Source of the DNA: Acidihalobacter yilgarnensis
GTDB taxonomy: Bacteria > Pseudomonadota > Gammaproteobacteria > DSM-5130 > Acidihalobacteraceae
NCBI RefSeq assembly: GCF_001753245.1
Contig: NZ_CP017415.1
Span: forward strand, 3,032,040 to 3,096,039
Reading direction: 5' to 3'
DNA length: 64,000 nucleotides
Made by a program: the position numbers and the translations under genes. The notes under the pieces were generated by a model. The model saw only the letters and a program-made list of their open reading frames with translations. It made no database searches and was not told the DNA's origin. Positions 47,268 through 61,441 of the stretch are shown one piece after another; the first letter of the stretch is position 1, and the number at the start of each line of letters is the position of its first letter.

Positions 47268-47702
47268 ATGTCCATCGCATCCTATTTAATCCCAACGGTC
47301 ATCGTCGGCTATCTCGCCTGGCAGTGGCGACCCCTGTGGCGCGCGCGCCGGCAACGCGGACAAGCCGCCCTCGGGCTGGAGCGCGTATTTCCGGCAGGCG
47401 TGCCCGACAAGGCTGCAGTCTACTTCTGGAGCAGCCACTGCGTCATGTGCCGGGGCATGACCCCGATCATCGAGCGCTTGGCGCAGGAACGCGGCGACAT
47501 CGCCTGCCTCGACGCCGAACGTGAGGTGACGCTGGCCAAGGGACTTGGCGTCATGGCAACGCCAAGTCTGGTCGTAATACGCGGGGGACACATTGCACGC
47601 ATCGTGGTCGGTGCGCAGTCGGAACCGCGCATTCGCCGATTGCTCGATGAAACGCCTTCCGACCCGGATGCGCCGGGGGATTCGAACGGTTCGCGCGGCT
47701 AG
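47268..47702 (+). CDS. Membrane-anchored thioredoxin-family protein
   Basis: The 144-residue protein has an N-terminal membrane segment (SYLIPTVIVGYLAWQW) followed by a thioredoxin fold. The active site is SSHCVMCRGMTPIIERLAQE (CVMC) and the cis-Pro region is GVMATPSLVVIRGG. It converges with copD, overlapping it by 4 bases. Its proximity to the copper genes suggests, but does not prove, a role in metal-site thiol chemistry. Confidence 0.85.
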   Translation: MSIASYLIPTVIVGYLAWQWRPLWRARRQRGQAALGLERVFPAGVPDKAAVYFWSSHCVMCRGMTPIIERLAQERGDIACLDAEREVTLAKGLGVMATPSLVVIRGGHIARIVVGAQSEPRIRRLLDETPSDPDAPGDSNGSRG

Positions 47703-48748
47703 GCCTGCGAACCCTGCCGCACGAAGGGGACAACAACCGCGACGGCAGGCGCAGGCGCAAATCCCATGTGGCGCATGTCTGCCGGGGGCATACCGTGATG
47801 CAGCACTGACGCTGCCGCCAGCACCAGCACACCCAGAACGCTCTCGATATGAACGGCACGGGCGCAGCGCGACAGCAGGTGGGCCCCACCAGGCGCGGTA
47901 GAGAGTGGCTGCCAGCCGGGTACGCGTGCCCAGAATGATGACCGGCCGACGGGCAAACCGACCCAGCGGCGAAGCGCTGGAAGCTTGTGGTAGCGATTGT
48001 GGCCACCGAGATAGACCATCCATGCGACCAGTATCACCTTGAATGACAACACCTGTCCGTACCGGCTCTGCCACAGGTCGTCCACCCGCTCCAAGCCACC
48101 CCAGGCGTTGTACACCCCAGAAACCACAATCGCGATCAATGCAATCGTGGCGACGCTCGACAGACGGGCGAACACCTCGACCGAGAGCATGCGCTCGACA
48201 TCCACCTGTCTCATCAGCGCCGGGAACACAAGCAACGACATGGCAAACAGCCCACCCACCCAGATACCGCTGGACAGCACATGCACACAGTCGACCCAGA
48301 CACCGATTGAGTAGATACCCTGATCGCCGGCATGCCCGGTTGCGCTGCGTGAAAACACCACCACCAGCAATACGACCATCGCCAGCCACGCAGCGGCACC
48401 GCGCCAGCCGCGCACGAATCCCACCAACCAACACACCCACAGGATGGCCACCGCGACCATACGCGTCTGCCAGATGAGACCGAAGTGCGTCTTATGCACG
48501 ACCAGCGGCAGATAAGTCGGCAAGGCGGAGAACGCAGCACCGCTGAATTCGAGTGTACGCGAGGCCAACAATACGCCGCTGGCCACGGTCAGCAGCGCCA
48601 GCGCGATCCCCAAACCCGCCCAGAGTCGCGCATGAAAATACCCCGGCGCGTGCCGGGGTATCACCCAAATCGCGCAGGCCAACACACCGGCGCATGCCGA
48701 GATGGCCATGACGTCCAGCCAGGTCGCCAGAACGAAGAAGGATTCCAT
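47699..48748 (-). CDS. copD: Copper resistance protein CopD
   Basis: CopD-family inner-membrane proteins act in copper import together with CopC. The 349-residue product has about eight helices. It carries family landmarks VHKTHFGLIWQTRM, CVHVLSSGIWVGGLFAMSLL and KVILVAWMVYLGGHNRYHKL, with histidines that can bind Cu. It starts 9 bases after the copC stop and ends the copper operon. Confidence 0.92.
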   Translation of the reverse strand: MESFFVLATWLDVMAISACAGVLACAIWVIPRHAPGYFHARLWAGLGIALALLTVASGVLLASRTLEFSGAAFSALPTYLPLVVHKTHFGLIWQTRMVAVAILWVCWLVGFVRGWRGAAAWLAMVVLLVVVFSRSATGHAGDQGIYSIGVWVDCVHVLSSGIWVGGLFAMSLLVFPALMRQVDVERMLSVEVFARLSSVATIALIAIVVSGVYNAWGGLERVDDLWQSRYGQVLSFKVILVAWMVYLGGHNRYHKLPALRRWVGLPVGRSSFWARVPGWQPLSTAPGGAHLLSRCARAVHIESVLGVLVLAAASVLHHGMPPADMRHMGFAPAPAVAVVVPFVRQGSQA

Positions 48749-48757
48749 CGCGCCCGC

Positions 48758-49129
48758 CTATTTCACATTGAACGGGAACTTGCCCTCTGTATGGTGGCCA
48801 TCGCGCGCGACGACGCTCCACTGTACCCAGTACTGGCCTGGTGCCAGTGGCTTGAGGTTCGTCTCAAGCAATCTCGGGTTGCTAGCCGGCACCTGGCTGC
48901 CGCCGGTGTTGACGACCTGCCCGGCGCCGCTCTCGACGGTAATCTTCGAAAACAAGGCATTGAGATCGGCATCGAACCAGATGCGAACCTGTTTGGGTGC
49001 GCTCGCTTCCGTAGCCCCCACCTGAGGCGAGGACTTCACCGGGAAGGCGTGTGCCCACGCCGGTGCCGCCATGGAGAAACCGGCCAGCAGGCCGAAAACG
49101 ATCCCGAACTGCTTCACGCTACGCAACAT
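48758..49129 (-). CDS. copC: Periplasmic copper-binding protein CopC
   Basis: This 123-residue protein has a signal peptide ending AWA, so the mature protein begins HAFPVKSSPQVGA. An N-terminal His at the mature end is a Cu(II) ligand in this family (His1 of the His-brace). The C-terminal VVARDGHHTEGKFPFNVK supplies the other His/Asp ligands. Met-rich Cu(I) loop is absent. It lies 66 bases after the outer-membrane gene and 9 bases before copD. Confidence 0.94.
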   Translation of the reverse strand: MLRSVKQFGIVFGLLAGFSMAAPAWAHAFPVKSSPQVGATEASAPKQVRIWFDADLNALFSKITVESGAGQVVNTGGSQVPASNPRLLETNLKPLAPGQYWVQWSVVARDGHHTEGKFPFNVK

Positions 49130-49195: not shown

Positions 49196-50101
49196 TCAAC
49201 CGAAGATCGGCGCACCGAGGCTATGCGGCAACACGTCGTCGAGGTATACATCGATACCGACCAGGATACCGACATGATTGCCCGAGGCGCGAGTCGCCGG
49301 GATCTGCGCCTCGATGCCCAGCTGATAATACTTGCCGACCCAGATCACGCCCGGATTTACCGAGCCGGTGGCATCGAGATTACCGCTGTTCTGGCACACC
49401 GAGTAGTTGCCTGCGCAACGCGACATGGTGTACTCCACGATGGGCACCATGTTGTTGAACGGCGCCTTCAGGCCCGCGTATTTCACAAAGCTCTGCAGGT
49501 ACGGAATGCTGTACTGCAACGACACGCCGACGTTGAGCATGCGCGGCTGGGTCGCATCGGAAGGCATGTCCATCGAGATCGCGCCCGAGACCGCCAGCGG
49601 GCGCAAATAGCGCATCGACCAGGGCAAATCACCCATGCCCTTGCCGAAGGCGAATTCGGGGGAAACCGTCGAATAATTGCTATCCATCCCACCACTGCCG
49701 CTATTGGCCAGGGTATCGCTCAAGGCCAACATGCCTATCGCCTCATGCGGACCGTTGACGAACAACTGGTAAGCAGCCCCGACGGTAATGTTGTCCCAAC
49801 CGCTCTGATTCGGCGTGCCGGGCTGACTGATCCAGTTGTAGTCCGAGGCCACACTCAGGCCAAAGCGCTTGGTGATCGTCTTGGAATATGCCAAACCCAG
49901 GTTCTTGGTGGTCACACCGTCGGCCTTGGTTTGGCTGTAATTGGTGGAAAATTCGTTGGCAACCCCCGGGTCGTCGAAGCTCATGGTCGCCGGAAACACG
50001 CGCATGCCAGCCACCGCGTGTGCCCATGACGCCACAGGCGCGGCCAATGCCGCCGACACCACGATACCGACGCCCAAGCGCTTGAGTTTATTCTGTCGCA
50101 T
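49196..50101 (-). CDS. Copper-operon outer-membrane protein (transporter/Phenol_MetA_deg-like barrel)
   Basis: The 301-residue product has a signal peptide (about 1-28, ending ASWAHA) and beta-barrel-like strands with alternating residues, e.g. SLQYSIPYLQSFVKYAG and VGKYYQLGIEAQIPATRA. The start is ATG 50101 with AGGAGAGGG upstream. I recognise it only as an outer-membrane transporter-like barrel; a copper role is inferred from being first in an operon with copC-copD. The mature N-terminus begins HAVAGM, like CopC. A RegA-type palindrome lies 69-93 bases upstream. Confidence 0.8.
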   Translation of the reverse strand: MRQNKLKRLGVGIVVSAALAAPVASWAHAVAGMRVFPATMSFDDPGVANEFSTNYSQTKADGVTTKNLGLAYSKTITKRFGLSVASDYNWISQPGTPNQSGWDNITVGAAYQLFVNGPHEAIGMLALSDTLANSGSGGMDSNYSTVSPEFAFGKGMGDLPWSMRYLRPLAVSGAISMDMPSDATQPRMLNVGVSLQYSIPYLQSFVKYAGLKAPFNNMVPIVEYTMSRCAGNYSVCQNSGNLDATGSVNPGVIWVGKYYQLGIEAQIPATRASGNHVGILVGIDVYLDDVLPHSLGAPIFG

Positions 50102-50169
50102 CCTGACCCTCTCCTGAAAATATAATGGTTTCTGATAAGGGTGGATTATCATCACAAAAACAATCTTCT

Positions 50170-50194
50170 GTCCTGCGACACATCGTCGCAGGAC
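50170..50194. promoter_or_regulatory. 25-bp palindrome, RegA/PrrA-type operator candidate
   Basis: GTCCTGCGAC-ACATC-GTCGCAGGAC has perfect 10-base arms. It contains the half-sites GCGAC and GTCGC, which match the published RegA/PrrA/ActR half-sites as I remember them. It is located between the copper operon start (50101) and regB start (50325). The core CTGCGAC-N5-GTCGCAG recurs at 61423-61441. Confidence 0.65.
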
Positions 50195-50324
50195 ACTCGC
50201 GTTGTCATAAACCAGATGATTTGCGGTAGAAAATGGAACTATCATCGCCCTTCACGGCTCGAAACAGCCAAGCATAAATCCCGGCATCAGCGCTTCAGAT
50301 CGGGAAAGCCATCAGGGGAAAAGC

Positions 50325-51614
50325 ATGAACGCTGAAGCCAGCGTAGACGCGCGCAGCCCGGGACGCCCCGGCAAGGTCAACCTCCAGCGCCTGTACGTGA
50401 TGCGCAATCTCGCCGTCGCGGCTCAGTTGGGCGCGATCATTGTCGCGCGCGAAATCTACCGCATTCACCTCCCCCTCGACCCACTGTTGCAGATCATCGG
50501 TGGCCTGGCCGTCATCAACGTGCTGACCTGGCTGCGGCTGCAAAGCGCCCGTGACTGCGGCGAGCGCGAGTTCCTGTTCCAGTTGCTGCTGGATATCGGC
50601 GCGCTCACTGGTGTGTTGTATTTCACAGGCGGTGCGACCAACCCCTTCGTCGGGCTCTTCCTGCTACCGCTGACCATCGCAGCCACCGTGCTGCGGCCCT
50701 ATTACACCTGGCTGCTTGCCGGCATCACCGTGGTCGCCTACAGCTGGTTGATGACGCATTTCGTGCCCATGCCACCCTCCCTCGGCGATGTGGCTACCGG
50801 CTTCGACCCCATGGTGACCGGCATGTGGTTGCGCTTCGTGATCAATTCCGCGCTGATCGCGTACTTCGTGGTCGGCATGGCCGAGACCCTGCGCCAACGC
50901 GAGCGCACCCTGGCGCTGGCGCGCGAGGAGACCCTGCGCAACGAGCGCCTGGTCGCACTGGGCATGCTCTCAGCCGGCGCCGCACATGAACTCGGTACGC
51001 CACTGGCCACCCTGGCCACGCTGACCGGCGAACTACGTCGACGCTATCGGGGGCCTGAATACGAAGAACTGCAGGAAAGCCTTGGACTAATGCGTGGGCA
51101 AATCGACCGCTGCAAGGAGGCACTCGGCGAAATATCCGCGTCGGCCGGCGGCCAGCAGGCCCAGGCCGGGCACGTCGTGCCCGTTCGCGGCTACCTACTC
51201 GACACCCTGGAGCAATGGACCCGCATGCGCCCCGGCGTGGCGGTCACGCCGCGTCTCGACGGCCCGGAATCCCTGCCCAGAATCCTCACTGAACGCACCC
51301 TGTCGCAAGCCATTATCACCATGCTCAACAATGCTGCGGACGCTTCACCGCAGGCAGTCGAGCTGAATGCGGAATGGGACAGCGAACACCTGATACTGGA
51401 GGTCTGCGACCGTGGCGCGGGATTGGCGCCGGCGGCCTCCGCCACGGTCGGACAGTCGCCCTTCTCCACCAAGGAGCAGGGCTTGGGTCTCGGCCTCTAC
51501 CTGGCCCACGCCGCCATCAAGCGTGTCGGCGGCCAGGTCTCCTTGCTCGACCGTCCGGGTGGCGGCACCTGCGCCCGGGTCGAGCTGCCACTCAACCGAC
51601 TCTCAGCGACCTGA
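50325..51614 (+). CDS. regB: Redox-sensing histidine kinase RegB (PrrB/ActS family)
   Basis: The 429-residue protein has six N-terminal helices (about 25-190) with the family's quinone-site heptapeptide GGATNPF (102-108). The H-box is GAAHELGTPLATLATL (phosphorylated His221), the redox-active cysteine is MRGQIDRCKEAL (Cys263, equal to RegB Cys265), and the HATPase domain has LNNAADASP and GLGLGLYLAHA. RegB responds to ubiquinone redox state and respiration. AGGGGAAAAGC precedes the ATG, and regA follows after 4 bases. Confidence 0.95.
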   Translation: MNAEASVDARSPGRPGKVNLQRLYVMRNLAVAAQLGAIIVAREIYRIHLPLDPLLQIIGGLAVINVLTWLRLQSARDCGEREFLFQLLLDIGALTGVLYFTGGATNPFVGLFLLPLTIAATVLRPYYTWLLAGITVVAYSWLMTHFVPMPPSLGDVATGFDPMVTGMWLRFVINSALIAYFVVGMAETLRQRERTLALAREETLRNERLVALGMLSAGAAHELGTPLATLATLTGELRRRYRGPEYEELQESLGLMRGQIDRCKEALGEISASAGGQQAQAGHVVPVRGYLLDTLEQWTRMRPGVAVTPRLDGPESLPRILTERTLSQAIITMLNNAADASPQAVELNAEWDSEHLILEVCDRGAGLAPAASATVGQSPFSTKEQGLGLGLYLAHAAIKRVGGQVSLLDRPGGGTCARVELPLNRLSAT

Positions 51615-51618
51615 AACC

Positions 51619-52182
51619 ATGAACCACACCGCCTTGAAAACACGCAATGATCCTCACCCGTCACTGCTGCTGGCCGAGGATGACGAAATTTTTCGTCATG
51701 TGCTCTCTCGGGCACTCGCCGAGCGGGGCTACGACGTGATCGCTGCCCGCGATCTGGCCGACGCCGAACGCCTCGCGGAGGATCACCGACCTTCCTATGC
51801 CGTGGTAGACCTGCGCCTGGGCGACGATTCCGGCCTTGAGCTGATCGACCGCCTGACCCGCATCTCGCCCGGCATCCGGGCCGTCATTCTCACCGGCTAT
51901 GCGAGCATCGCCACCGCCGTCGAGGCCATCAAGCTCGGCGCCACGTACTACCTGACCAAGCCGGTCGATGCTGACGAAGTCGTCGCCGCCTTGCATCGAG
52001 ATGAAGGCAACCCCGGCATCAGCCCGGCCGAACGGCCCTGCTCAGTCAAACGCCTGGAATGGGAACACATCCAGCAAGTCCTGCAGCAGTGTCAGGGCAA
52101 CATCTCGGAGACTGCGCGCAAGCTGGGCATGCATCGTCGAACGCTGCAACGAAAGCTTCAGAAGCGCCCGGTACGTCACTAA
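51619..52182 (+). CDS. regA: Response regulator RegA (PrrA/ActR family)
   Basis: The 187-residue protein has a receiver domain (about 14-130, LLLAEDDEIFRHVLSRALAE, phospho-acceptor Asp64 in AVVDLRLGDDSGLELI, Lys in YYLTKPVDADE). A Fis-type helix-turn-helix tail reads QCQGNISETARKLGMHRRTL then QRKLQKR, almost the family consensus. RegA controls respiration, nitrogen and carbon genes in other bacteria. It overlaps the convergent SLOG gene by 4 bases. Confidence 0.96.
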   Translation: MNHTALKTRNDPHPSLLLAEDDEIFRHVLSRALAERGYDVIAARDLADAERLAEDHRPSYAVVDLRLGDDSGLELIDRLTRISPGIRAVILTGYASIATAVEAIKLGATYYLTKPVDADEVVAALHRDEGNPGISPAERPCSVKRLEWEHIQQVLQQCQGNISETARKLGMHRRTLQRKLQKRPVRH

Positions 52183-52553
52183 ACCCCGCCGACCGCCCCA
52201 GCCGGCCGCCGCAGGTCTAGCACCGGCAGGCCCAAGGTGCGGGCGCGCTCCACCAGATCCGGCGTGCCTCTGCCGCCCGGAAAGGCCACCACGAAATCCG
52301 GGCAACCCTGCTCGAACATGCGCCGATGGCTGGCCGGGCCGGCCGCAAACCCCTGCCCGCGCCAATCCGCTGCGAATACCTCGGTGGGAATGCCCTGCTG
52401 CTTGGCCCAGGCCTCGGCCAGATGATCGGTTTCACTGTGCCCGCCATGAATGACGCAACCGATGGACCAGCGCTCATGCACGGTGTAAAGGGCATGATAG
52501 ATCCGGGAATGTGCATTGTCGGAAGCCCCGCCGGCCACCAGCACACGCCTCAC
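52179..52553 (-). CDS. SLOG-fold DUF2493 protein
   Basis: The 124-residue protein begins VRRVLVAGGASDNAHSRIYH at GTG 52553, which overlaps the Sel1 stop as GTGA and has AGAGGTG upstream. The features GCVIHGGHSETDHLAEAWAK, EVFAADW and FVVAFPGGRGTPDLVERA are those of the SLOG (YAcAr/DUF2493) family of nucleotide-sensing domains. Such proteins are often in conflict or stress systems; here it closes a redox operon. Confidence 0.8.
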   Translation of the reverse strand: MRRVLVAGGASDNAHSRIYHALYTVHERWSIGCVIHGGHSETDHLAEAWAKQQGIPTEVFAADWRGQGFAAGPASHRRMFEQGCPDFVVAFPGGRGTPDLVERARTLGLPVLDLRRPAGAVGGV

Positions 52554-53131
52554 GGCCGCACCTCTCGCGCCGTCAGCCAAGCGCGGGCGGCATCCTTTGC
52601 GCGGGCCGTGGCGCTTGGACCGATCTCAGCCGCCAACGCACCCAAAACCGACCGCCACTGCGGCGAGCGGCGCGCCGCCAGCCAATACCAACGATATGCC
52701 TGCGTCCGATCCTGGCGCACCCCCTGGCCAAGGTAATAGGCATTGCCCAATTCCGCCAAGGCATGGGCGCTGCCCAGCTGTGCCGCGCGCCGATACCAGA
52801 CCACCGCCTGCGCAGGGTTCTCCGGCACACCCCGACCGAAGCGATAGAGATATCCCAGATTGAGCGCCGCCGTGCGATTACCGGACGTCGCCGCACGCAG
52901 ATAGTCGCTGCGCGCGCGCAGTGGATCGCCGGCACTTTCCCAGTAGGCACCCAGCCAGTTCATCGCCACCGCATCGCCCGCGTGGGCAGCCACGTCGAGC
53001 CGGAGATAAGCCTTGACGTCATGCCCCAGCGCCATCACCGCCAATCGATGCCCCTGTGTCGGACTCATGTCCGCCCAGGCAGCCAACGGCAACAGCGCCA
53101 TCAGACCAATCGCCACCCGCCATCTCGCCAT
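52550..53131 (-). CDS. Sel1-repeat protein with signal peptide
   Basis: The product of about 193 residues has a signal peptide (about 1-20, ending AAWA) and four or five Sel1-like TPR units, e.g. AALNLGYLYRFGRGVPENPA and ALAELGNAYYLGQGVRQDRT. It is probably a periplasmic protein-protein scaffold. ATG 53131 is spaced properly from AGGA; ATG 53140 overlaps the b561 stop and is possible. Operon neighbours are cytochrome b561 upstream and the SLOG gene downstream. Confidence 0.82.
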   Translation of the reverse strand: MARWRVAIGLMALLPLAAWADMSPTQGHRLAVMALGHDVKAYLRLDVAAHAGDAVAMNWLGAYWESAGDPLRARSDYLRAATSGNRTAALNLGYLYRFGRGVPENPAQAVVWYRRAAQLGSAHALAELGNAYYLGQGVRQDRTQAYRWYWLAARRSPQWRSVLGALAAEIGPSATARAKDAARAWLTAREVRP

Positions 53132-53136
53132 CCCGA

Positions 53137-53730
53137 TCATTCCTGACGCACTCGTCGTGGCCAGAACATCGACGACACCACCGGTTGGCGCGACAGCTGG
53201 TGTATCAACACGATGCCGACATGCCCCAGCCAGTAGGCCCAGGCAAGATAGGAAATGAGGTTATGCATCTCGGAAACTGCCGTGAACATCGCGGCCCCGT
53301 GCATGCCCTTGAAGGAAGGCCTGAGCAGCAGATTGAGCACCCCGGTCAAACCCATCCCCGTCATGATCAGAAAGCCGAGGCCGTGGACATAACTCGGCAG
53401 TCCCACGCGCGGACCCGATTCTGGCAGTTGCCCGCGCAACAGGCCGCGCAGGTCGGCCAGCACCGCGCGCCGACCGCTCGGATACCACGGGAACAGCTGG
53501 TTCAGATACCACCCCTGGCGATAACGCACGATCCACACCCAGTGCGCCGTGACCAGGCAAGCGGCGGTAACTCCGATGATCTGATGCATCAAAAACACAT
53601 CAGCGGTCTGCGGAGTGGACATGTCGAGGCTACTAAACAGCTGGAAGGTAATCGTCAGGGCCATCCCCAGGTGCAACCAGCGGATCGCCGGGTCCCAGGA
53701 GCGGCCAGGAGCGGGCGCACGCATCGTCAT
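53137..53730 (-). CDS. Cytochrome b561-type di-heme membrane protein
   Basis: The 197-residue protein has four helices with histidines for two b hemes: AIRWLHLGMALTITFQLF, FLMHQIIGVTAACLVTAHWV, SYVHGLGFLIMTGMGLTGVL and MHNLISYLAWAYWLGHVGIV. It resembles the prokaryotic b561/Ni-Fe hydrogenase b-subunit fold, which moves electrons between quinones and periplasmic carriers. ATG 53730 has GGAGGC 8 bases upstream. The stop overlaps the possible Sel1 start. Confidence 0.88.
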   Translation of the reverse strand: MTMRAPAPGRSWDPAIRWLHLGMALTITFQLFSSLDMSTPQTADVFLMHQIIGVTAACLVTAHWVWIVRYRQGWYLNQLFPWYPSGRRAVLADLRGLLRGQLPESGPRVGLPSYVHGLGFLIMTGMGLTGVLNLLLRPSFKGMHGAAMFTAVSEMHNLISYLAWAYWLGHVGIVLIHQLSRQPVVSSMFWPRRVRQE

Positions 53731-53969
53731 GATATCGCCTCCGGTGGCTCGATCTCGCCACGCACCCGACACGGATGCGCGGTTCCACACGAATGCAATG
53801 CACAGCCCGCGCCAATCCCCCACCAGGTGCCACCCAGGCCGGCACGCGGGCCGCTGCGCCTTGCCCGATGCGCGTTAACGCCCGTAGCGGGACAGGCCGC
53901 TACGTCAACGACCGTGCGCGAAGCTGCATCAAGCTGAGTCTTGCATGAAGCAAAACGAGTCTGCCGACG

Positions 53970-54335
53970 TCAGTCCACCAAATGGAGAATCAGCTTGGCC
54001 AGTACGGGGGCTTGTGCGGCGCTGGCCATACCCGGGGGCATGGGCGGATACCCGGACCATAAACCGGTACTGCCGTTGGCAATGGCCTTGCTCACATCTG
54101 CTTCGGCATTCGATTTGCCGTGGTAGCGCAATGCCACGTCCGCCCAGGCGGGGCCGATCACGCGATGATCGACCGCGTGGCAACTCATGCAGGCAAGACC
54201 ATTGGACTGAACGTACGCAAGCAACTTGGTGGCGTCGGCCTGATTGACCTTTGGCGATGCGAGCACCGGGGCCGACAGACCCGCAAGTATCAAAGCAAGA
54301 CCGGCGAGACGTAATGACTGTGCGGTTTTTTTCAT
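53970..54335 (-). CDS. Class I c-type cytochrome
   Basis: The 121-residue protein has a signal peptide ending VLA and one heme site CMSCH (Cys49, Cys52, His53). The axial Met is likely in PPMPPGMAS, near residue 100. The mature length of about 95 fits cytochrome c-551/552-type electron carriers. The 239-base gap between it and the b561 start (53731-53969) holds no gene I can support. Confidence 0.93.
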   Translation of the reverse strand: MKKTAQSLRLAGLALILAGLSAPVLASPKVNQADATKLLAYVQSNGLACMSCHAVDHRVIGPAWADVALRYHGKSNAEADVSKAIANGSTGLWSGYPPMPPGMASAAQAPVLAKLILHLVD

Positions 54336-54582
54336 AGATGGACACTCCCTTTGTGCAATAGCCCACCGTGTTGGGTGGGACGACCATCACTCTAGCCCCA
54401 GCTCACCATGCCCCCCTTGACCCGGATCACGAAATGCGCGGATCGGCCAAACAAGCACTTTGCCGCATCTTTGGATACACTTCCAATTAAATTTGGCGAT
54501 AAGCATCCCTATTCGCGAGTTGGGCCGCGCAAACCGCCATACAGCCCATACATCAGCACAAGTTCTTTAACTGGCCCCCCCC

Positions 54583-57153
54583 ATGACTTACATACATACC
54601 GCCTACAACATGCCGCTGGTCGTTCTGTCCTTCGTGGTCGCCACGATGGCCTCGTTCACCGCACTGGAACTTGCCCGCCGCGTGACCAATCAAGAAGCGG
54701 GCAGGCGTGCGGATATCTGGCTGGTCACCGGCGCCGTGGTCATGGGGCTTGGCATCTGGTCGATGCACTTCATCGGCATGCTGGCCTATGAAACCGGTAT
54801 GCACATTCACTACAACATCCCGCTGACGGCGCTCTCGATGCTGGTCGCCATCGCGTCCTCGGGCTTCGCCCTGCATATTGCCACTCGCAGCCAACTCGGC
54901 ACCCTCCGGCTAGGCCTTAGCGGCCTGCTGATGGGCGCGGGCATTGCGGCCATGCATTACATCGGCATGGCGGCAATGATCATGCCGGCACGCCCGCATT
55001 ACGACCTGACGATCCTGGGCATCTCGATTCTGATCGCGGTGGTCGCCGCCACGGCGGCGCTGTGGATGACCTACCATCTCGCGCGCCGGGCAGGATTCGA
55101 CATCCCCCCGATGCGCCTGCGCCTAGCGGCCTCGCTGGCCATGGGCATCGCCATCTGCGGCATGCACTACACCGGTATGGCTGCGGTTGGATACACCCCG
55201 ATCAGCCCCCAGGCGCTTGGCACCATCAACCTCGCTACCGACGGCAACGACCTCGGGCGCTTCTGGATCGCGGTAGCCCTCGGCGGCGTGACCGTCATCC
55301 TGCTGGCGGCCACTTTGCTGATCGTGCTGATCGAAACGCGCCTGGCCGACCGCGAACACATCGAGCGCGTGCTCAAGCACCGTATCGCAGATACCTCCCG
55401 CGCCCTGCATCACGAACAGATTCGCGGGCAAGTAACGCTCGACGCCATTGCCGACGGCGTGATCACCACCGACCTTGATGGTCACGTGATCCACCTCAAC
55501 CCGATGGCCGAAAAAATGACCGGCTGGCTCACCGAGGCCGCGCTGAACCAGCCCGTGGCGAACATTCTGGCCATTCTCCACGAAACCACCCGCCGGCCAG
55601 TCACGTTGCCCATGGACGCGGTATTCGAGGAGCACCGTACCTCGCGACTGCCCTCGGTCAACCTGATCAACGCGGACGACAACAACGAAATCGCCGTAGA
55701 CCTGATGGCCTCCCCCATCCGCGACGACGACGGCAGCCTGATCGGCGCGGTCATCGTCTTCCGCGACATCAGCCAGCGCCAGGAACTGACGCGCAAACTC
55801 AACTATCAGGCCCGTCATGACGCACTGACCGGACTGTACAACCGCACCGAGTTCGACGAACGCCTGCGCGAGGCCATCCATTCCTGCCAGGAAGACGAAC
55901 GCGAGCATGCACTGGTCTATTTCGACCTCGACCACTTCAAGCTGGTCAACGACACCAGCGGCCATATCGCCGGCGACGAATTGCTCAAACAGCTGAGTTT
56001 GCTGCTACGCAGCTGCTTCCGTGAGGCCGACGCCATCGCCCGACTCGGTGGCGACGAATTCGGCGTGATCATGCGCGACTGCCCGCCGGTGATGGCCAAA
56101 CGCCTTGCCGAAAAACTCCGTGAGACGGTCGAGCATTTCCGCTTTTCCTGGAAGGACCGCACCTTCAGCATCGGGATCAGCGCCGGGCTGGTCAGCATCA
56201 ACGCCTTCGGTGGCGACATCACGCGCCTGCTCAGCGCCGTGGATGCCGCCTGCTATCTCGCCAAGGACAACGGCCGCAACCGCATCGAGGTCTACGACGA
56301 GAAAGCCAGTCAACTGGCGCTCAGGGGTCAGGAAATGGAATGGGCCAATCGCATCCGCGAAGCCCTGGAACACGATCACTTCGTACTCTACTGCCAAAGT
56401 ATCAGTGCCTTGAACCCAGATGCCCAACCGGCCCACTGCGAGGTGCTGCTGCGTTACCGCGACGAACACGGCCATATCTCTCCGCCGATGAGCTTCATCC
56501 CCACCGCGGAACGCTATTTCCTGATGCCCTCGATCGATCGCTGGGTGATCCGCAATGTGCTCGATCTGCTCTCCCGCCAGCAAGCGCAACCCGGCAGCGA
56601 GGCGCACACCTACTCCATCAACCTCTCGGGACAGAGCCTCGGCGACGCCAGCCTCGCCGACTTCATCATCGAGCGCATCGAGGCCACCGGCGTGAACCCC
56701 GCCAGCCTGTGCTTCGAAATCACCGAGACCGCGGCGATCACCAACCTGAGCCATGCGCGGCTGTTCATCCATACCCTCAAGGCGCGAGGCGTGCGTTTTT
56801 CGCTCGACGATTTCGGCAGCGGCATGTCCTCCTTCGCCTACCTCAAGGACCTGCCGGTCGATTACATCAAGATCGACGGGTGCTTCATCCGCGACCTGCT
56901 CGACGACAATCTCGACCACGCCATCGTCACCTCGATCTGCGACATCGGCCGCGTACTCGGCATCAAGACCGTCGCCGAATATGTGGAAACGGAATCCGTC
57001 ATCGAGCGTTTGCGCGAGATCGGCATCGACTACGCGCAGGGGTTCTGGATCGGCAAACCCCAGCCGATCCCCGACGCACAGCCCGTGCCGCTGATCCTCG
57101 AAACCGCCACCGAAACCACGCTCGCGGTCAATACCCCAGGCCTGATCAGCTAG
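54583..57153 (+). CDS. MHYT-PAS-GGDEF-EAL cyclic-di-GMP signalling protein
   Basis: The 856-residue membrane protein starts with an MHYT sensor of seven helices carrying three MHYT-type motifs: SMHFIGML (61), AMHYIGMA (124) and GMHYTGMA (194). A PAS domain (about 275-400), a GGDEF domain with intact RLGGDEF (487-493) and an EAL domain follow. EAL-motif residues read CEVLLRY (Glu620-Val-Leu), and the FEITET, DDFGSG, KIDGCF and TVAEYVE motifs are kept, so phosphodiesterase activity is likely. The MHYT domain is proposed to bind copper and sense O2/NO/CO. The ATG follows an eight-C run with no Shine-Dalgarno. Confidence 0.93.
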   Translation: MTYIHTAYNMPLVVLSFVVATMASFTALELARRVTNQEAGRRADIWLVTGAVVMGLGIWSMHFIGMLAYETGMHIHYNIPLTALSMLVAIASSGFALHIATRSQLGTLRLGLSGLLMGAGIAAMHYIGMAAMIMPARPHYDLTILGISILIAVVAATAALWMTYHLARRAGFDIPPMRLRLAASLAMGIAICGMHYTGMAAVGYTPISPQALGTINLATDGNDLGRFWIAVALGGVTVILLAATLLIVLIETRLADREHIERVLKHRIADTSRALHHEQIRGQVTLDAIADGVITTDLDGHVIHLNPMAEKMTGWLTEAALNQPVANILAILHETTRRPVTLPMDAVFEEHRTSRLPSVNLINADDNNEIAVDLMASPIRDDDGSLIGAVIVFRDISQRQELTRKLNYQARHDALTGLYNRTEFDERLREAIHSCQEDEREHALVYFDLDHFKLVNDTSGHIAGDELLKQLSLLLRSCFREADAIARLGGDEFGVIMRDCPPVMAKRLAEKLRETVEHFRFSWKDRTFSIGISAGLVSINAFGGDITRLLSAVDAACYLAKDNGRNRIEVYDEKASQLALRGQEMEWANRIREALEHDHFVLYCQSISALNPDAQPAHCEVLLRYRDEHGHISPPMSFIPTAERYFLMPSIDRWVIRNVLDLLSRQQAQPGSEAHTYSINLSGQSLGDASLADFIIERIEATGVNPASLCFEITETAAITNLSHARLFIHTLKARGVRFSLDDFGSGMSSFAYLKDLPVDYIKIDGCFIRDLLDDNLDHAIVTSICDIGRVLGIKTVAEYVETESVIERLREIGIDYAQGFWIGKPQPIPDAQPVPLILETATETTLAVNTPGLIS

Positions 57154-57169
57154 CGAGTCGGCACTCCCG

Positions 57170-57460
57170 TTATCGCCTGCCAACGTACGCTGGTAGATGC
57201 CCATCAGATCCGCTTCCGCGATCACCTGCCCGCGCGCATCGCGGCGAGCAAGGTATCGCGCTCCGGCGGCACGGCGAACTCAAGCACCGCGCCCAGCGCG
57301 TACAACCGGAAGAAATAGCGATGCCGCCCAATCGGCGGGCAGGAACCACCGTAACTCGCGCGCCTCCATCTGCTGAGTCCATCGTGCGCACCGCACGGTG
57401 GCGACTGCAACCCTTCGCCAAGATGTCGCACCAGCGGCGGTAGGTCATACAGCACCCAGT
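57170..57460 (-). pseudogene. PEBP/YbhB-family gene remnant
   Basis: The minus strand encodes HWVLYDLPP, then RASYGGSCPPIGRHRYFFRL and YALGAVLEFAVPPERDTLLA, clear C-terminal half of a phosphatidylethanolamine-binding (YbhB/Raf-kinase-inhibitor) protein. The N-terminal half is missing past 57460. Near 57240 the frame shifts by two bases before VIAEADLMGIYQR, and the stop is lost. It is non-functional debris. Confidence 0.7.
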
Positions 57461-57988
57461 GGCGCGTTGATACGCTCTGTCGACCTCATTGGGGCACACA
57501 CCTCGAATGGTCTGCTCTCGCAGTTGCTCGTCGATATGCCCGCTGGATATCGGCTCTATCATCCCGACGGACCCGATCATGTACACACCTGGGCCAATCT
57601 GCCCGACGTCGCAAACGCGACCGGCCGGCTACTCGACCACGATAGCGCCTTGCCCATCTACGCGGTATTCGACTTTCCGGGATATCGACTCAGCTTCGCT
57701 GATTTGGCCGACACCGTACGCCGTGCCAGCGGCCGGCCGGTGAAACTCCGCCCCTTCGGCGTGCATACGACGCATCCGTTTGCGGGCTTCGCCCTGCATC
57801 TTCGCGCGTTGCGCCGTGCACATCCCAGTGACACAGCGACCCTGCCACCGCTCGACGGCGAGCCGCTACGCGTAACCCTCGGCGGTTCATTACCGTTCAC
57901 GCAGCTGCCTGCGGCCCTGATCGCGGCCGGTCTGATCGACAGCGTCGACCAGCGAGAACTGCATTGGTCCTACGTGGAGTCGCCATAA
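57461..57988 (+). pseudogene. NAD-dependent epimerase/SDR gene remnant (N-terminus missing)
   Basis: The plus strand encodes LIRSVDLIGAHTSNGLLSQL, then HVHTWANLPDVANATGRLLD, LPIYAVFDFPGYRLSFADLA and RASGRPVKLRPFGVH, which is the substrate-binding half of an atypical SDR. The first 150 or so residues with the TGxxGxxG motif are absent; the sequence before 57460 belongs to the reversed PEBP remnant. A join of two broken genes is the simplest reading. Confidence 0.65.
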
Positions 57989-58278
57989 CGTCGGCGCAGG
58001 TATTGATCCCATGCTTCGTGGACACACTGCGGGCGCCCGAGCCGGCCGCCATGTGCGCATCGAGGCATCGCCGAGCCACTGCTGACGGCGATGCCGCATG
58101 GATCGCCGGGGACGCCGTGTGGCCGGCACGCGGATATCGTAATGGCGCACGGTGCGTTCTCCCACAGACCGGCAGCCGCACGCGTTTCCTGTTAGGCTCC
58201 GCCAGCGAAAGCCGGCGCGACGAAATTGAACGACACGCGACCCGCCCGAGCGAACCACCCTCACTCAAGAGCTGCCCC

Positions 58279-58893
58279 ATGACCCGCGATACGAACACGG
58301 CCCATCCACGGCCGGAGCCCGCCAACGCCGTAGCCCAAACCCGCAGCTGGCTGGCGCGCGTGGTCATCGCCCACGACCTGTGCCCGTTCGCGCGAGGCCC
58401 CTTCGAAACCCAGCGCATTCGCTATGTCGCTTCCGGCGCCGACCGGGCCGAAGACCTGCTGACGGAGCTGCGCGACGAATTGTTGAAACTGCGCGACACA
58501 CCGCGCGAGGTAATCGAAACCACGCTGCTGATCCACCCCGGCGTGTTGCAGGATTTTCTCGATTACAACGATTTTCTCGATCTTGCTGACGCGCTCATCG
58601 AAGACCTGGGCCATGGCGAGGATTTCCAGATCGCCAGCTTTCACCCCGACTACCAGTTCGCCGACACCCAGCCCGAAGACGCGGAAAATTATACCAACCG
58701 CTCCCCTCACCCCATGCTGCACCTGTTGCGTCAAAGCAGCCTGAACGCGGCTCTGGAACATTACCCGGACCCCGAGGCCATCCCTCAACGCAACATCGAC
58801 GCGCTCAGGGCGCTCGGCAGCGAACGCCTGCGCTCGGAACTCGCGGTCTGCCTGAATGCGGATAGCGCGGAAATCGGCAACGACCAAACCTGA
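58279..58893 (+). CDS. DUF1415-family protein
   Basis: The 204-residue protein starts at ATG 58279 and has the family core HDLCPFARGPFETQRIRYVA, FLDYNDFLDLADALIEDLG, FQIASFHPDYQFADTQPEDA and YTNRSPHPMLHLLRQSSL, then DPEAIPQRNIDALRALG. DUF1415 is a cytosolic family of unknown function. The preceding 290 bases (57989-58278) hold no recognisable gene. Confidence 0.9.
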   Translation: MTRDTNTAHPRPEPANAVAQTRSWLARVVIAHDLCPFARGPFETQRIRYVASGADRAEDLLTELRDELLKLRDTPREVIETTLLIHPGVLQDFLDYNDFLDLADALIEDLGHGEDFQIASFHPDYQFADTQPEDAENYTNRSPHPMLHLLRQSSLNAALEHYPDPEAIPQRNIDALRALGSERLRSELAVCLNADSAEIGNDQT

Positions 58894-58944
58894 CACCCGG
58901 CAGGGCGGGATGCGCGACCTCTCCACGCATCCCGCAAACCCGCA

Positions 58945-61194
58945 CTACGCAAAGCGCGCGTCGAAGCCGATATCAAACGAACGGCCGGGGCCAGGCACCG
59001 TAATGCCAGCGGGCACGCCGTTGAGCATCATGGTCATACCCTGGCCGACATAGACGCCGTCCTGCGGGTTGTAATACAGCCGGTTGAACAGGTTATCGAT
59101 GCCAGCGCGAACCGTCACGTTGCCCTGCGTATAGGTCGCGTGCAGATTCACGATCGCGTAGGCACCCGTCTTCGGTTCGCTTTGAATTTGCGAAACATTT
59201 GTTTTCGCGCCGACAAATTGCACCGCGACGGCATTGTTCCAGTGCACTGTGCTCTGGCTGAGTTCAACATCCCCCTGCCAGGGTGCGATGCCGAAAAGAC
59301 CCTGGTGCGTGCTCGTGTTGCGAGCGTGTATGTAGCTGATTTTACCGTTCAGAAAAAACTCGCCTGCCGCCTGCGTCTGCGCCACGCTCACCTTGCCCAT
59401 CAAGTCGGCGCCAGCCATGCGAGCCTGCTGATTGGTGTACTGTAGAATATTGAATTTTCCAGCATGACAGGTAGTGCCGGGAGCGCACTGCTCACCGATA
59501 TAATCGTGTATCTGCGTCAGATACGCATCGGCATTAACGACCCACGGATGCTCTTGCGTGTTGGCCCATTGGCCACTGATATCAGCGGTGTAGGCAACCT
59601 CGGGTTTCAAATTCAGATTACCCACATAACCGTTACCGTCACCGACCATATTATTCATCACCGCGATCATCGGCATCGAGGACCAGGTGTAGCGCTGATA
59701 CAAATTCGGCGAACGTTCCTGTCGCATCACACCGAAGGTGTATTTCTGCATATCGCTCGGTTTGAATTTGGCGATCGCACTCCAGTCCCAGTCGTGATCG
59801 GTTTTTTGATGAGACTGCGCATTGAACGTCGCCGCCTGCGTGTTGTACATCATGTTGTAGCCATGTACATCGCCTGCATTCTGCTCGACCGTATCGCCGC
59901 GCACGCCCACCAGCGTCGTCCAGCGCGGTGCCCACTGGCGATGCCACTCGAGATACGCATCGTAGCGGTTGCTATGCCCGTCATTGATATTATTGAACGT
60001 ATTCGGCGCCATCATCCCAGTGCCCGAGGGCGGCCAGTAATCGTTCAGCCGGAATGAATGAAGCAGCAGGCCTGCGCGCAGAAAATCGCCGTGATCCAGG
60101 TGGATCATGCCGTCGAGCTTGACGCCGTCGATATGGCCGTGCGACTTCATCGGCATGCCCGGCGTGGTGCCGTACTGATATTGCTTGTCGCTGCCGAGAT
60201 TCATCGTATGGCGTACGTCCTGGTGATACACGTGCAGCTTGATATTGCCCCAGTCGAAGCGATCACGATAATTGAAATGGATCAGGGTGCTCTTATTCGC
60301 CACCATGTCCATCCGCTGGTTCGGATAATACTCATGGGGAATATTCTGCCAATTAACCGACAGACTGGTCAGTTGCGTGCCGTGTCGATAGGCGAACTCC
60401 AGCATCTGATTATTGGTGCTGTAGGCAGACGATCCCACCACGTCCGCGCCGATCGAGCCCCGTCCCATAGCCGCCGGGCCCGCCGCATGGAAATCACCGC
60501 CAGCTTTGTAGTCCGAGGCATGCGCTACATCGCCGCTGTATTTCATGCTGAAGGCGTCGTTGGCGATGGTCGCGGCCAGATGCGCGCCCGTCGCGTCGCC
60601 GTTGGTATGGTAATACCCACCGATTTCTCCACTGGACAGGGTCTTGCCCGGCATCGCGAATTTCGGCGGCGCGGGATGCACGATGACCGAAGCACCGATA
60701 CTATCGCCATCCGCACTCACCGGCACGATACCGGTATAGGCCGTCATCCCGCCGAGCTGGCTCGGAAAGAGATAAGAAAGAATCGGATTCATGTGATTCG
60801 GGCAGGCGGAATTGAGCTGCATGCCGGCGAACGACAAATGCAGTTGATCATCCATCAGGCCATGCACGACCGGAAATCCAGACACGCCACCCGTCTTGAA
60901 CACGCTGCCACCGAGAATGCTGTTCAACATATCGGCCGTATTACTGGTTTTCATTCCATAATTTTTTACCGCCGCGGGCGACAACACCTGCGCGCCCATC
61001 TCCGCTTCCCACGAAGTGGCAGTATTGATGGTCACCACCGGGACATGTATGGCCGTTGTCTCGGCAAATGCGGCATACGGAAAACCACAGGCAGCGGATG
61101 CAATCGACACCGCCAGCATTTTTTTGGCAAAAGGGGCAAGACCCTGGTTACGACATATCACTCCTGCAAGCGTGGGAAGCTTGTTTTTCATCAT
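58945..61194 (-). CDS. TonB-dependent copper receptor (OprC/NosA-like)
   Basis: The 749-residue outer-membrane receptor has a long signal peptide (to about residue 44, AAFA), a plug domain and a 22-strand barrel rich in Met and His. The plug contains LNSACPNHMNPILSYLFPSQ; CPNxM (Cys131, Met135) equals the Cu-binding CxxxM of P. aeruginosa OprC. RMDMVANKSTLIHFNY and the C-terminal RAGIDNLFNRLYYNPQDGVY also fit the TonB-copper family. Three RegA-like inverted repeats lie upstream. The start ATG 61194 is followed by a second ATG. Confidence 0.85.
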   Translation of the reverse strand: MMKNKLPTLAGVICRNQGLAPFAKKMLAVSIASAACGFPYAAFAETTAIHVPVVTINTATSWEAEMGAQVLSPAAVKNYGMKTSNTADMLNSILGGSVFKTGGVSGFPVVHGLMDDQLHLSFAGMQLNSACPNHMNPILSYLFPSQLGGMTAYTGIVPVSADGDSIGASVIVHPAPPKFAMPGKTLSSGEIGGYYHTNGDATGAHLAATIANDAFSMKYSGDVAHASDYKAGGDFHAAGPAAMGRGSIGADVVGSSAYSTNNQMLEFAYRHGTQLTSLSVNWQNIPHEYYPNQRMDMVANKSTLIHFNYRDRFDWGNIKLHVYHQDVRHTMNLGSDKQYQYGTTPGMPMKSHGHIDGVKLDGMIHLDHGDFLRAGLLLHSFRLNDYWPPSGTGMMAPNTFNNINDGHSNRYDAYLEWHRQWAPRWTTLVGVRGDTVEQNAGDVHGYNMMYNTQAATFNAQSHQKTDHDWDWSAIAKFKPSDMQKYTFGVMRQERSPNLYQRYTWSSMPMIAVMNNMVGDGNGYVGNLNLKPEVAYTADISGQWANTQEHPWVVNADAYLTQIHDYIGEQCAPGTTCHAGKFNILQYTNQQARMAGADLMGKVSVAQTQAAGEFFLNGKISYIHARNTSTHQGLFGIAPWQGDVELSQSTVHWNNAVAVQFVGAKTNVSQIQSEPKTGAYAIVNLHATYTQGNVTVRAGIDNLFNRLYYNPQDGVYVGQGMTMMLNGVPAGITVPGPGRSFDIGFDARFA

Positions 61195-61219
61195 TATCCT
61201 CTCGAATGAAGGCGGCTAC

Positions 61220-61240
61220 GCGACCAAATCCCTGTCGCAG
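61220..61240. promoter_or_regulatory. Weak RegA-type half-site pair
   Basis: GCGAC-N9-GTCGCAG, 26 bases before the receptor ATG. The same half-sites as the palindromes upstream, but with a nine-base spacer, so it is weaker evidence. Confidence 0.3.
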
Positions 61241-61380
61241 AATTAATCTCAATCGACACCTGGCGGACAGGCGAATGGCCATGACTCCGGCTGTCGATTG
61301 CGATATCGAATCCCTGAAATACAGATAAGCGCGCACACCCTATTCGATACCTTCACAAGGTCCAATAGCCAGACTGGTTT

Positions 61381-61399
61381 CTGCGACGATATGTCGCGA
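61381..61399. promoter_or_regulatory. RegA-type operator candidate 1 upstream of the copper receptor
   Basis: CTGCGAC-GATAT-GTCGCGA has six of seven arm bases paired. It lies 187-205 bases upstream of the receptor ATG and 42 bases (four helical turns) from the second copy. Confidence 0.55.
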
Positions 61400-61422
61400 C
61401 TTTCAGAGGTATTTACGGCGAT

Positions 61423-61441
61423 CTGCGACGATATGTCGCAG
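61423..61441. promoter_or_regulatory. RegA-type operator candidate 2 upstream of the copper receptor
   Basis: CTGCGAC-GATAT-GTCGCAG is a perfect seven-base-arm palindrome. The minus-strand reading of 50173-50191 is identical except for one spacer base (GATGT). Confidence 0.6.

Follow-up and report, generated by a model that had tools for sequence, protein, structure and literature searches.

Which regulator acts on a palindrome that stands between regBA and a copper operon and again, at a distance, in front of a copper receptor gene? The question is raised by a stretch of 64,000 nucleotides of Acidihalobacter yilgarnensis (NZ_CP017415.1, positions 3,032,040 to 3,096,039), hereafter the window. 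In this window, the palindrome CTGCGAC-N5-GTCGCAG is found between the regBA operon, encoding a redox sensor kinase and a response regulator, and a divergent operon for an outer-membrane protein (OMP), CopC and CopD, as well as upstream of the gene for a TonB-dependent receptor related to OprC. The palindrome is probably a RegA operator, of which box 1 would govern both regBA and OMP-copC-copD, while the twin boxes 2 and 3 would govern the copper receptor. We infer, with good support, that copper uptake would be subject to RegA control. The predicted boxes, in window positions, are the following.

50173–50191, no strand assigned: RegA box 1 (predicted), CTGCGAC-ACATC-GTCGCAG, between the divergent OMP-copCD and regBA operons
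61423–61441, no strand assigned: RegA box 2 (predicted), CTGCGAC-GATAT-GTCGCAG, upstream of the copper receptor
61381–61399, no strand assigned: RegA box 3 (predicted), core GCGACGATATGTCGC at 61383–61397, 42 bp from box 2

Palindromes in the window and in the genome

Both exact copies lie where the original prediction, made from the sequence of the window, had placed them. Box 3, described there as near-perfect, differs from the 19-mer at two positions, both outermost, the 15-bp core GCGACGATATGTCGC being identical. Our comparison agrees with the statement that a single spacer base distinguishes the 50-kb copy, read on the minus strand, from the 61-kb copy, read on the plus strand, and the genes named beside the copies were right in outline (copC and copD by Pfam, RegB and RegA by their best families, and the receptor by its relation to OprC). 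The arms of the palindrome at 50 kb, given as 10 bases, had to be corrected to 11 (50169–50195); the palindromy of the outer four bases is lost in one congener (G002). As had been claimed, no other exact match is present in the window, and a scan of the whole genome (G000; 3,566,941 bases, one contig) with the 19-bp motif found the copies at 50173 and 61423 and no third.

With up to three mismatches, the window contains 9 motif matches compared with 7.9 in shuffles, and with up to two mismatches the whole genome contains 33 compared with 65 for the reversed pattern. The 12 arm bases are matched exactly twice in the genome, and twice also by the reversed control. Since the motif count equals that of the control in one genome, single-genome counts prove nothing, and the mismatch-tolerant counts, which did not exceed those of the reversed control, were dropped as evidence. 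Outside the window, all 17 GCGAC-N5-GTCGC cores examined (those among the matches listed, plus one from the 19-mer scan) sit within open reading frames (ORFs) of at least 134 amino acids; the three checked with Pfam correspond to a LysR gene start, a CheW gene and an unknown ORF.

Conservation within the genus

The family comprises five genomes, three of the genus itself and two of a sister genus, and an order-level search returned the same five. Both regB and the receptor are present in 3/3 congeners and in 0/2 sister-genus genomes. In the regB/OMP intergene, the arms of the box are invariant in 3/3 species around the spacers ACATC, GAAGT and ACAGT. Upstream of the receptor, the twin boxes are found in 3/3 species with their starts exactly 42 bp apart, i.e., about four helical turns, and each has at most one mismatch in its 12 arm bases. 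In one congener (G001) a distance of 2.46 Mb separates the receptor from regBA on a contig of 3.36 Mb; therefore, the shared box is no by-product of gene order.

These results bear on one alternative, namely that the palindromes are chance products of a GC-rich genome. The count in the genome itself, being the same as that of the reversed control, is what chance would give; conservation in three species, the spacing of the twin boxes and the association with RegA in 369 genomes described below are not, and we regard this explanation as having a negligible probability. What raises the finding above chance is where the boxes lie, the preservation of their arms across three species in which the spacers drift, and their association with RegA.

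Co-occurrence with RegA across the class

The association with RegA was assessed in 369 genomes sampled evenly from the class, in which RegA was called at E ≤ 1e-25 and at most nine RegA and two receptor candidates were scored per genome, which leaves absences soft. RegA is present in 122 of the 369 genomes and the motif TGCGACRNNNYGTCGCA in 57. The motif is carried by 48/122 genomes with RegA and by 9/247 without (Fisher p = 4e-18); copies in related genomes thus accompany RegA and are free of the random scatter that the original prediction had named as telling against it. The 48 genomes span 36 families (table read by eye). When the ten genomes with a box in the regB promoter alone are subtracted, the contrast is 38/122 to 9/247 (p = 6e-13).

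The same was found for the two copper loci. Ahead of the receptor, a box is present in 9/12 genomes with RegA and in 1/7 without (p = 0.017). Relatives of the window OMP were taken from named genomes (best 80 of 287 stretches), and a box with up to two mismatches was sought at 63 loci less 3 duplicates; 30 of the 80 OMP loci, titled Burkholderia, Paraburkholderia, Trinickia or Caballeronia, were left out of the RegA test. Outside the Burkholderiaceae, the OMP operon has a box in 9/10 genomes with RegA and in 3/37 without, where shuffles predict 3–6%, and in all nine it lies 37–93 bp ahead of the extrapolated start. In two genomes (G212 and that of locus L125) regA is on a different contig from the OMP operon. 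A promoter-box candidate in G140 was rejected, as the match falls inside the OMP gene.

Genes adjoining the exact boxes

Out of 80 exact sites class-wide, 66 sites at 60 loci were examined, three of them in genomes without detected RegA. Gene calls near the sites are ORF-based, groups rest on BLAST linkage and, for part of them, on Pfam, and the numbers of neighbouring gene kinds are raw counts, taken without a matched control. The regB promoter is found at 10/66 sites, and 5 sites show the arrangement of the window, with a beta-barrel OMP divergent from regB. OprC-like receptors lie behind 7 exact sites, with HxM in 7/7 and CxxxM in 3/7; against TIGR01778, one of them passes (563.8 bits; cut-off 472.45), five have it as best model below the threshold and one has it ranked third. 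Other TonB receptors lie behind 8 sites (all Pfam-confirmed; one in a genome without detected RegA), beta-barrel OMPs behind 12 (PF13557 in 7/10 tested; six very Met-rich), nqrA behind 2, and Tll0287-like proteins behind 2 (one confirmed). Altogether, regB, a TonB receptor or a beta-barrel OMP adjoins 30/66 sites. For the sites as a whole, the box mostly lies 30–125 bp from the start. The copper gene kinds that recur with the box are OMP-copC-copD operons, OprC-type receptors and Met-rich OMPs.

The range of these neighbours allows for another explanation, in which the RegA site is real and the copper link incidental, RegA acting as a global redox regulator of respiration and of nutrient uptake at the outer membrane. 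The eight other TonB receptors, nqrA, the Tll0287-like proteins and further genes are what it would predict. So is the situation in Methylomonas, where the expression of feo, a TonB receptor and tonB requires RegA, which binds directly at feo only (PMC13274454). This gammaproteobacterial RegA resembles the proposed system in driving metal uptake and differs from it in that the metal is iron rather than copper and that neither 'motif' nor 'consensus' occurs in the main text of PMC13274454. Against such a global role stands the observation that both exact boxes of the A. yilgarnensis genome flank copper genes, and that OprC-type receptors, OMP-copCD and Met-rich OMPs recur; we put its probability somewhat short of even. 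Because several targets have no evident copper role, the term 'copper regulon' suits the genome under study and is too narrow for the class.

Some individual loci deserve mention. Beta-barrel OMPs rich in Met, and in part also in His, follow immediately after exact boxes at the loci L273, L290 and L299 (also L263, L285 and L289). Like the window OMP, three of these are divergent from regB, although a profile comparison of these proteins with the window OMP family revealed no detectable homology (probability 0.9%). Exact boxes precede nqrA in L302 and L303, and that of L303 also faces an OprC-like receptor; in Methylomonas, the Na+-NQR operon is RegA-independent (PMC13274454). A box stands before a PepSY_TM protein (sub-threshold match) in L272, before Tll0287-like proteins in L274 and L295, and, on the right side of L278, before a DUF3450 gene opposite a TonB copper receptor. 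In L260 (G177:C18) and L261 (G325), six and three exact boxes, respectively, are clustered within 6–10 kb, near proteins with a possible His at the mature start (AHTG, AHTR, AHGG), and L260 also has a DUF3570 protein.

RegB and RegA

The two regulatory genes of the window are the following.

50325–51614, + strand: regB, redox sensor kinase with the GGATNPF quinone motif, H-box HELGTPL and a Cys in DRCKE
51619–52182, + strand: regA, response regulator with a Fis-type helix-turn-helix (HTH) and a Cys aligned with the PrrA Cys before the HTH

The best family matches are, by far, ActS/PrrB/RegB for RegB and ActR/PrrA/RegA for RegA. RegB holds a Cys in DRCKE, which may be the counterpart of the redox Cys265. 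The sequence GGATNPF at residue 102, upstream of HELGTPL at 221, fits the quinone motif GGxxNPF defined for RegB (PMC8191878). RegA consists of a receiver and a Fis-type HTH nearly identical to that of PrrA, the recognition helix MHRRTLQR being identical (1umq), and its Cys preceding the HTH aligns with the PrrA Cys.

Comparison with published operators and related systems

The half-sites GCGAC/GTCGC had been proposed to fit the RegA/PrrA consensus, and they do so when compared with the consensuses quoted in PMC5506826. The box cores agree at 14–15/15 positions with the R. capsulatus RegA consensus, which is very loose, and at 13–14/15 with the B. japonicum RegR consensus. For At. ferrooxidans, according to the same report, no RegA motif could be predicted. 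Chromatin immunoprecipitation (ChIP) in R. capsulatus has given RegA sites at ccoNOQP, GCGACCGTTCGTCGC, and at cydA, GTGACAATTTGTCCC (PMC5359404); the half-sites and spacing of GCGACCGTTCGTCGC are the same as those of the window boxes. The alphaproteobacterial RegA/PrrA/RegR operators thus share with the boxes the GCGAC...GTCGC half-sites, the spacing of 5 (in the RegR consensus and the ccoNOQP site) and a near-identical HTH; the published sites are degenerate, in contrast to the nearly perfect 12–14-base palindrome of fixed spacing found here in the Gammaproteobacteria.

It is already known that a RegA orthologue acts on copper genes, in B. japonicum RegR-copCAB (PMC4064962), and a gammaproteobacterial RegA on iron uptake (PMC13274454). 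In B. japonicum, RegR controls copCAB, so that a RegA orthologue governs a cop operon as proposed for the window, although the setting is denitrification and no receptor or OMP is mentioned in the available part of PMC4064962, where binding of purified RegR is listed for norC, nosR, bll3466 and bll4130, and not for copC. In R. capsulatus, RegA has been described as a copper-binding protein that undergoes oxidation at Cys156 and binds ccoN as a dimer (PMC9147068). The window RegA retains the Cys preceding the HTH, whereas the binding described is at ccoN, with no claim on copper-import genes in the available part of PMC9147068. The Bordetella CrtA TonB copper transporters likewise tie outer-membrane copper import to respiratory oxidases, but they are controlled via an upstream ORF, CruR, and RegA is absent from the main text of PMC12914433. 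In the open-licence literature searched, we found no account of a TonB copper receptor under RegA control, nor of this fixed palindrome.

Evidence against RegA as the regulator

Besides the equal counts of motif and control in the genome itself and the genes unrelated to copper behind boxes in other genomes, which show that the regulon is not purely copper, several observations weigh against the proposed role of RegA. The curated NCBIfam cut-offs are missed by both RegA (202.8 of 250; NF033791) and RegB (236.8 of 350; NF033792). The R. capsulatus consensus is too loose, so a match to it says little, and the window has no exact match to the RegR consensus. Because at most nine RegA candidates were scored per genome, some genomes labelled as lacking RegA, also in the receptor contrast, may be labelled wrongly. 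The reversed motif gives a weak contrast of its own (23/122 with RegA, 24/247 without; p = 0.012), presumably due to genome size or composition. Nine genomes without detected RegA carry the motif, and in one of them (G090, locus L317) an exact box lies 63 bp before a TonB receptor. The ten OMP genomes with RegA are not independent, because three of them are congeners. Within the Burkholderiaceae with RegA, the OMP box is found in only 1/13 at up to two mismatches, and with this family included the OMP contrast is 10/23 to 3/37 (p = 0.002). Among the remaining genomes with RegA, G140 lacks both the OMP and the receptor box, and G348 and G203 lack the receptor box. The thirteen Burkholderiaceae loci with RegA and the OMP gene are L104–L107, L109, L111–L113, L116–L118, L121 and L148. 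Because RegA and the OMP are kept and the two-mismatch box is found in L118 only, the wiring differs in this family.

The nine genomes without detected RegA, together with the Burkholderiaceae that have RegA and no box at the OMP, would be accounted for if a different regulator travelling with regBA bound the palindrome. Against such a protein stand the fit of the palindrome to the RegA and RegR consensuses and to the RegA ChIP site at cco, and the 10/66 sites that are regB promoters, as autoregulation predicts; although no systematic search for a co-occurring regulator was made, we consider a second regulator improbable and retain RegA as the protein expected to bind at the boxes.

The OMP-copC-copD operon and the promoters around box 1

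The operon divergent from regBA, and the putative promoters of both, comprise the following features.

49196–50101, − strand: OMP, first gene of the divergent operon, of an outer-membrane beta-barrel family with a nearly invariant His after the signal peptide
48758–49129, − strand: copC (PF04234, 70.5 bits, cut-off 23.3)
47699–48748, − strand: copD (PF05425, 69.7 bits, cut-off 32.1)
50145–50174, − strand: promoter-like AGGACA-18-GATAAT for OMP-copCD, a consensus match only, its −35 overlapping box 1
50217–50245, + strand: conserved block TGATTT-17-TATCAT in the three-species alignment, possibly the regB promoter

The copC and copD products do not reach the NCBIfam CopC and CopD equivalog cut-offs, and no Pfam or NCBIfam model matches the OMP family. 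Structure modelling of the OMP gave a beta-barrel (mean pLDDT 77.4), for which FapF is the closest match and the COG4313 channel a weaker one. The family heads copC-copD operons in beta- and gammaproteobacteria, and a CopC relative is present on the fetched stretch of 78/80 of the OMP relatives. The nearly invariant His, located where the signal peptide ends, might bind copper.

The GATAAT block is conserved in three species; the TGATTT-17-TATCAT block is absent from the promoter scan listing. Box 1 would lie near −44 of the predicted OMP promoter, overlapping its −35, which is an activator position, and near −70 of the conserved regB block. Judging from this placement, activation is likelier than repression. 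A palindrome in a leader might alternatively form an RNA hairpin, acting as attenuator or terminator, and on either strand the folding of the 50-kb region is indeed better than that of shuffles (z −4.4 and −3.2). The folding of the receptor region is not unusual (z −1.65), a terminator scan gave no match at the boxes, and box 1 would be upstream of the start points implied by the predicted promoters. Moreover, the arms are mostly fixed, with changes on one arm only. A hairpin is accordingly very improbable, and an operator for RegA is preferred.

The copper receptor

58945–61194, − strand: TonB-dependent receptor, OprC-related, with CxxxM (CPNHM) and HxM (HTM)

The motifs CxxxM and HxM provide the copper ligands of OprC. 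The receptor has both, CPNHM at 131, which is aligned with OprC, and HTM at 329, which was noted by presence only. Its closest PDB match is OprC (6z8s), the ACPNHM of the receptor being aligned with ACPNRM of OprC. The score against the TIGR01778 equivalog is 66.8 of 472.45 bits, below the cut-off; therefore, the receptor is a relative and not a member of the equivalog and, despite its likeness to OprC-type receptors, belongs to a separate subfamily.

Proposed mode of regulation

The original prediction that RegA runs a copper uptake and handling regulon in this organism draws support from the co-occurrence with RegA, the fit to the consensuses, the helix identical to that of PrrA and the recurring copper genes. 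Located between divergent operons, box 1 would allow RegA to control its own synthesis together with the OMP/CopC/CopD copper pathway. At the twin boxes, four helical turns apart, RegA would bind co-operatively on one face of the DNA and so control the receptor. The products of these genes would bring in copper for heme-copper oxidases and other cuproenzymes. According to the likeliest model, RegB would read the quinone pool, and RegA would raise copper import when the respiratory demand for copper is high, the sign of control being that suggested by the position of box 1.

Copper may be a second input to RegA, given the copper binding and the Cys156 oxidation described for the R. capsulatus protein (PMC9147068). 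A bolder version, which we consider speculative and rather unlikely, is that in this lineage RegA senses copper itself. Oxidation of the Cys before the HTH, driven by copper, would alter the grip of RegA on the palindromes, RegBA would merge quinone and copper signals with feedback on the receptor and OMP-CopC-CopD, and a copper-import regulon would be ancestral in gammaproteobacterial RegA.

Significance

Bacterial copper acquisition has been called poorly characterised (PMC12914433). The crisp palindrome present in 48 genomes with RegA provides a searchable operator where RegA sites had been degenerate. If RegA acts on it as proposed, it would tie copper supply to respiratory control in a manner that is directly testable, and would offer a physiological setting for the report of a copper-binding RegA (PMC9147068). 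Copper might cross the outer membrane with the help of the previously undescribed OMP family at the head of the copCD operon or of the Met-rich OMPs, both of them new candidates for this role.

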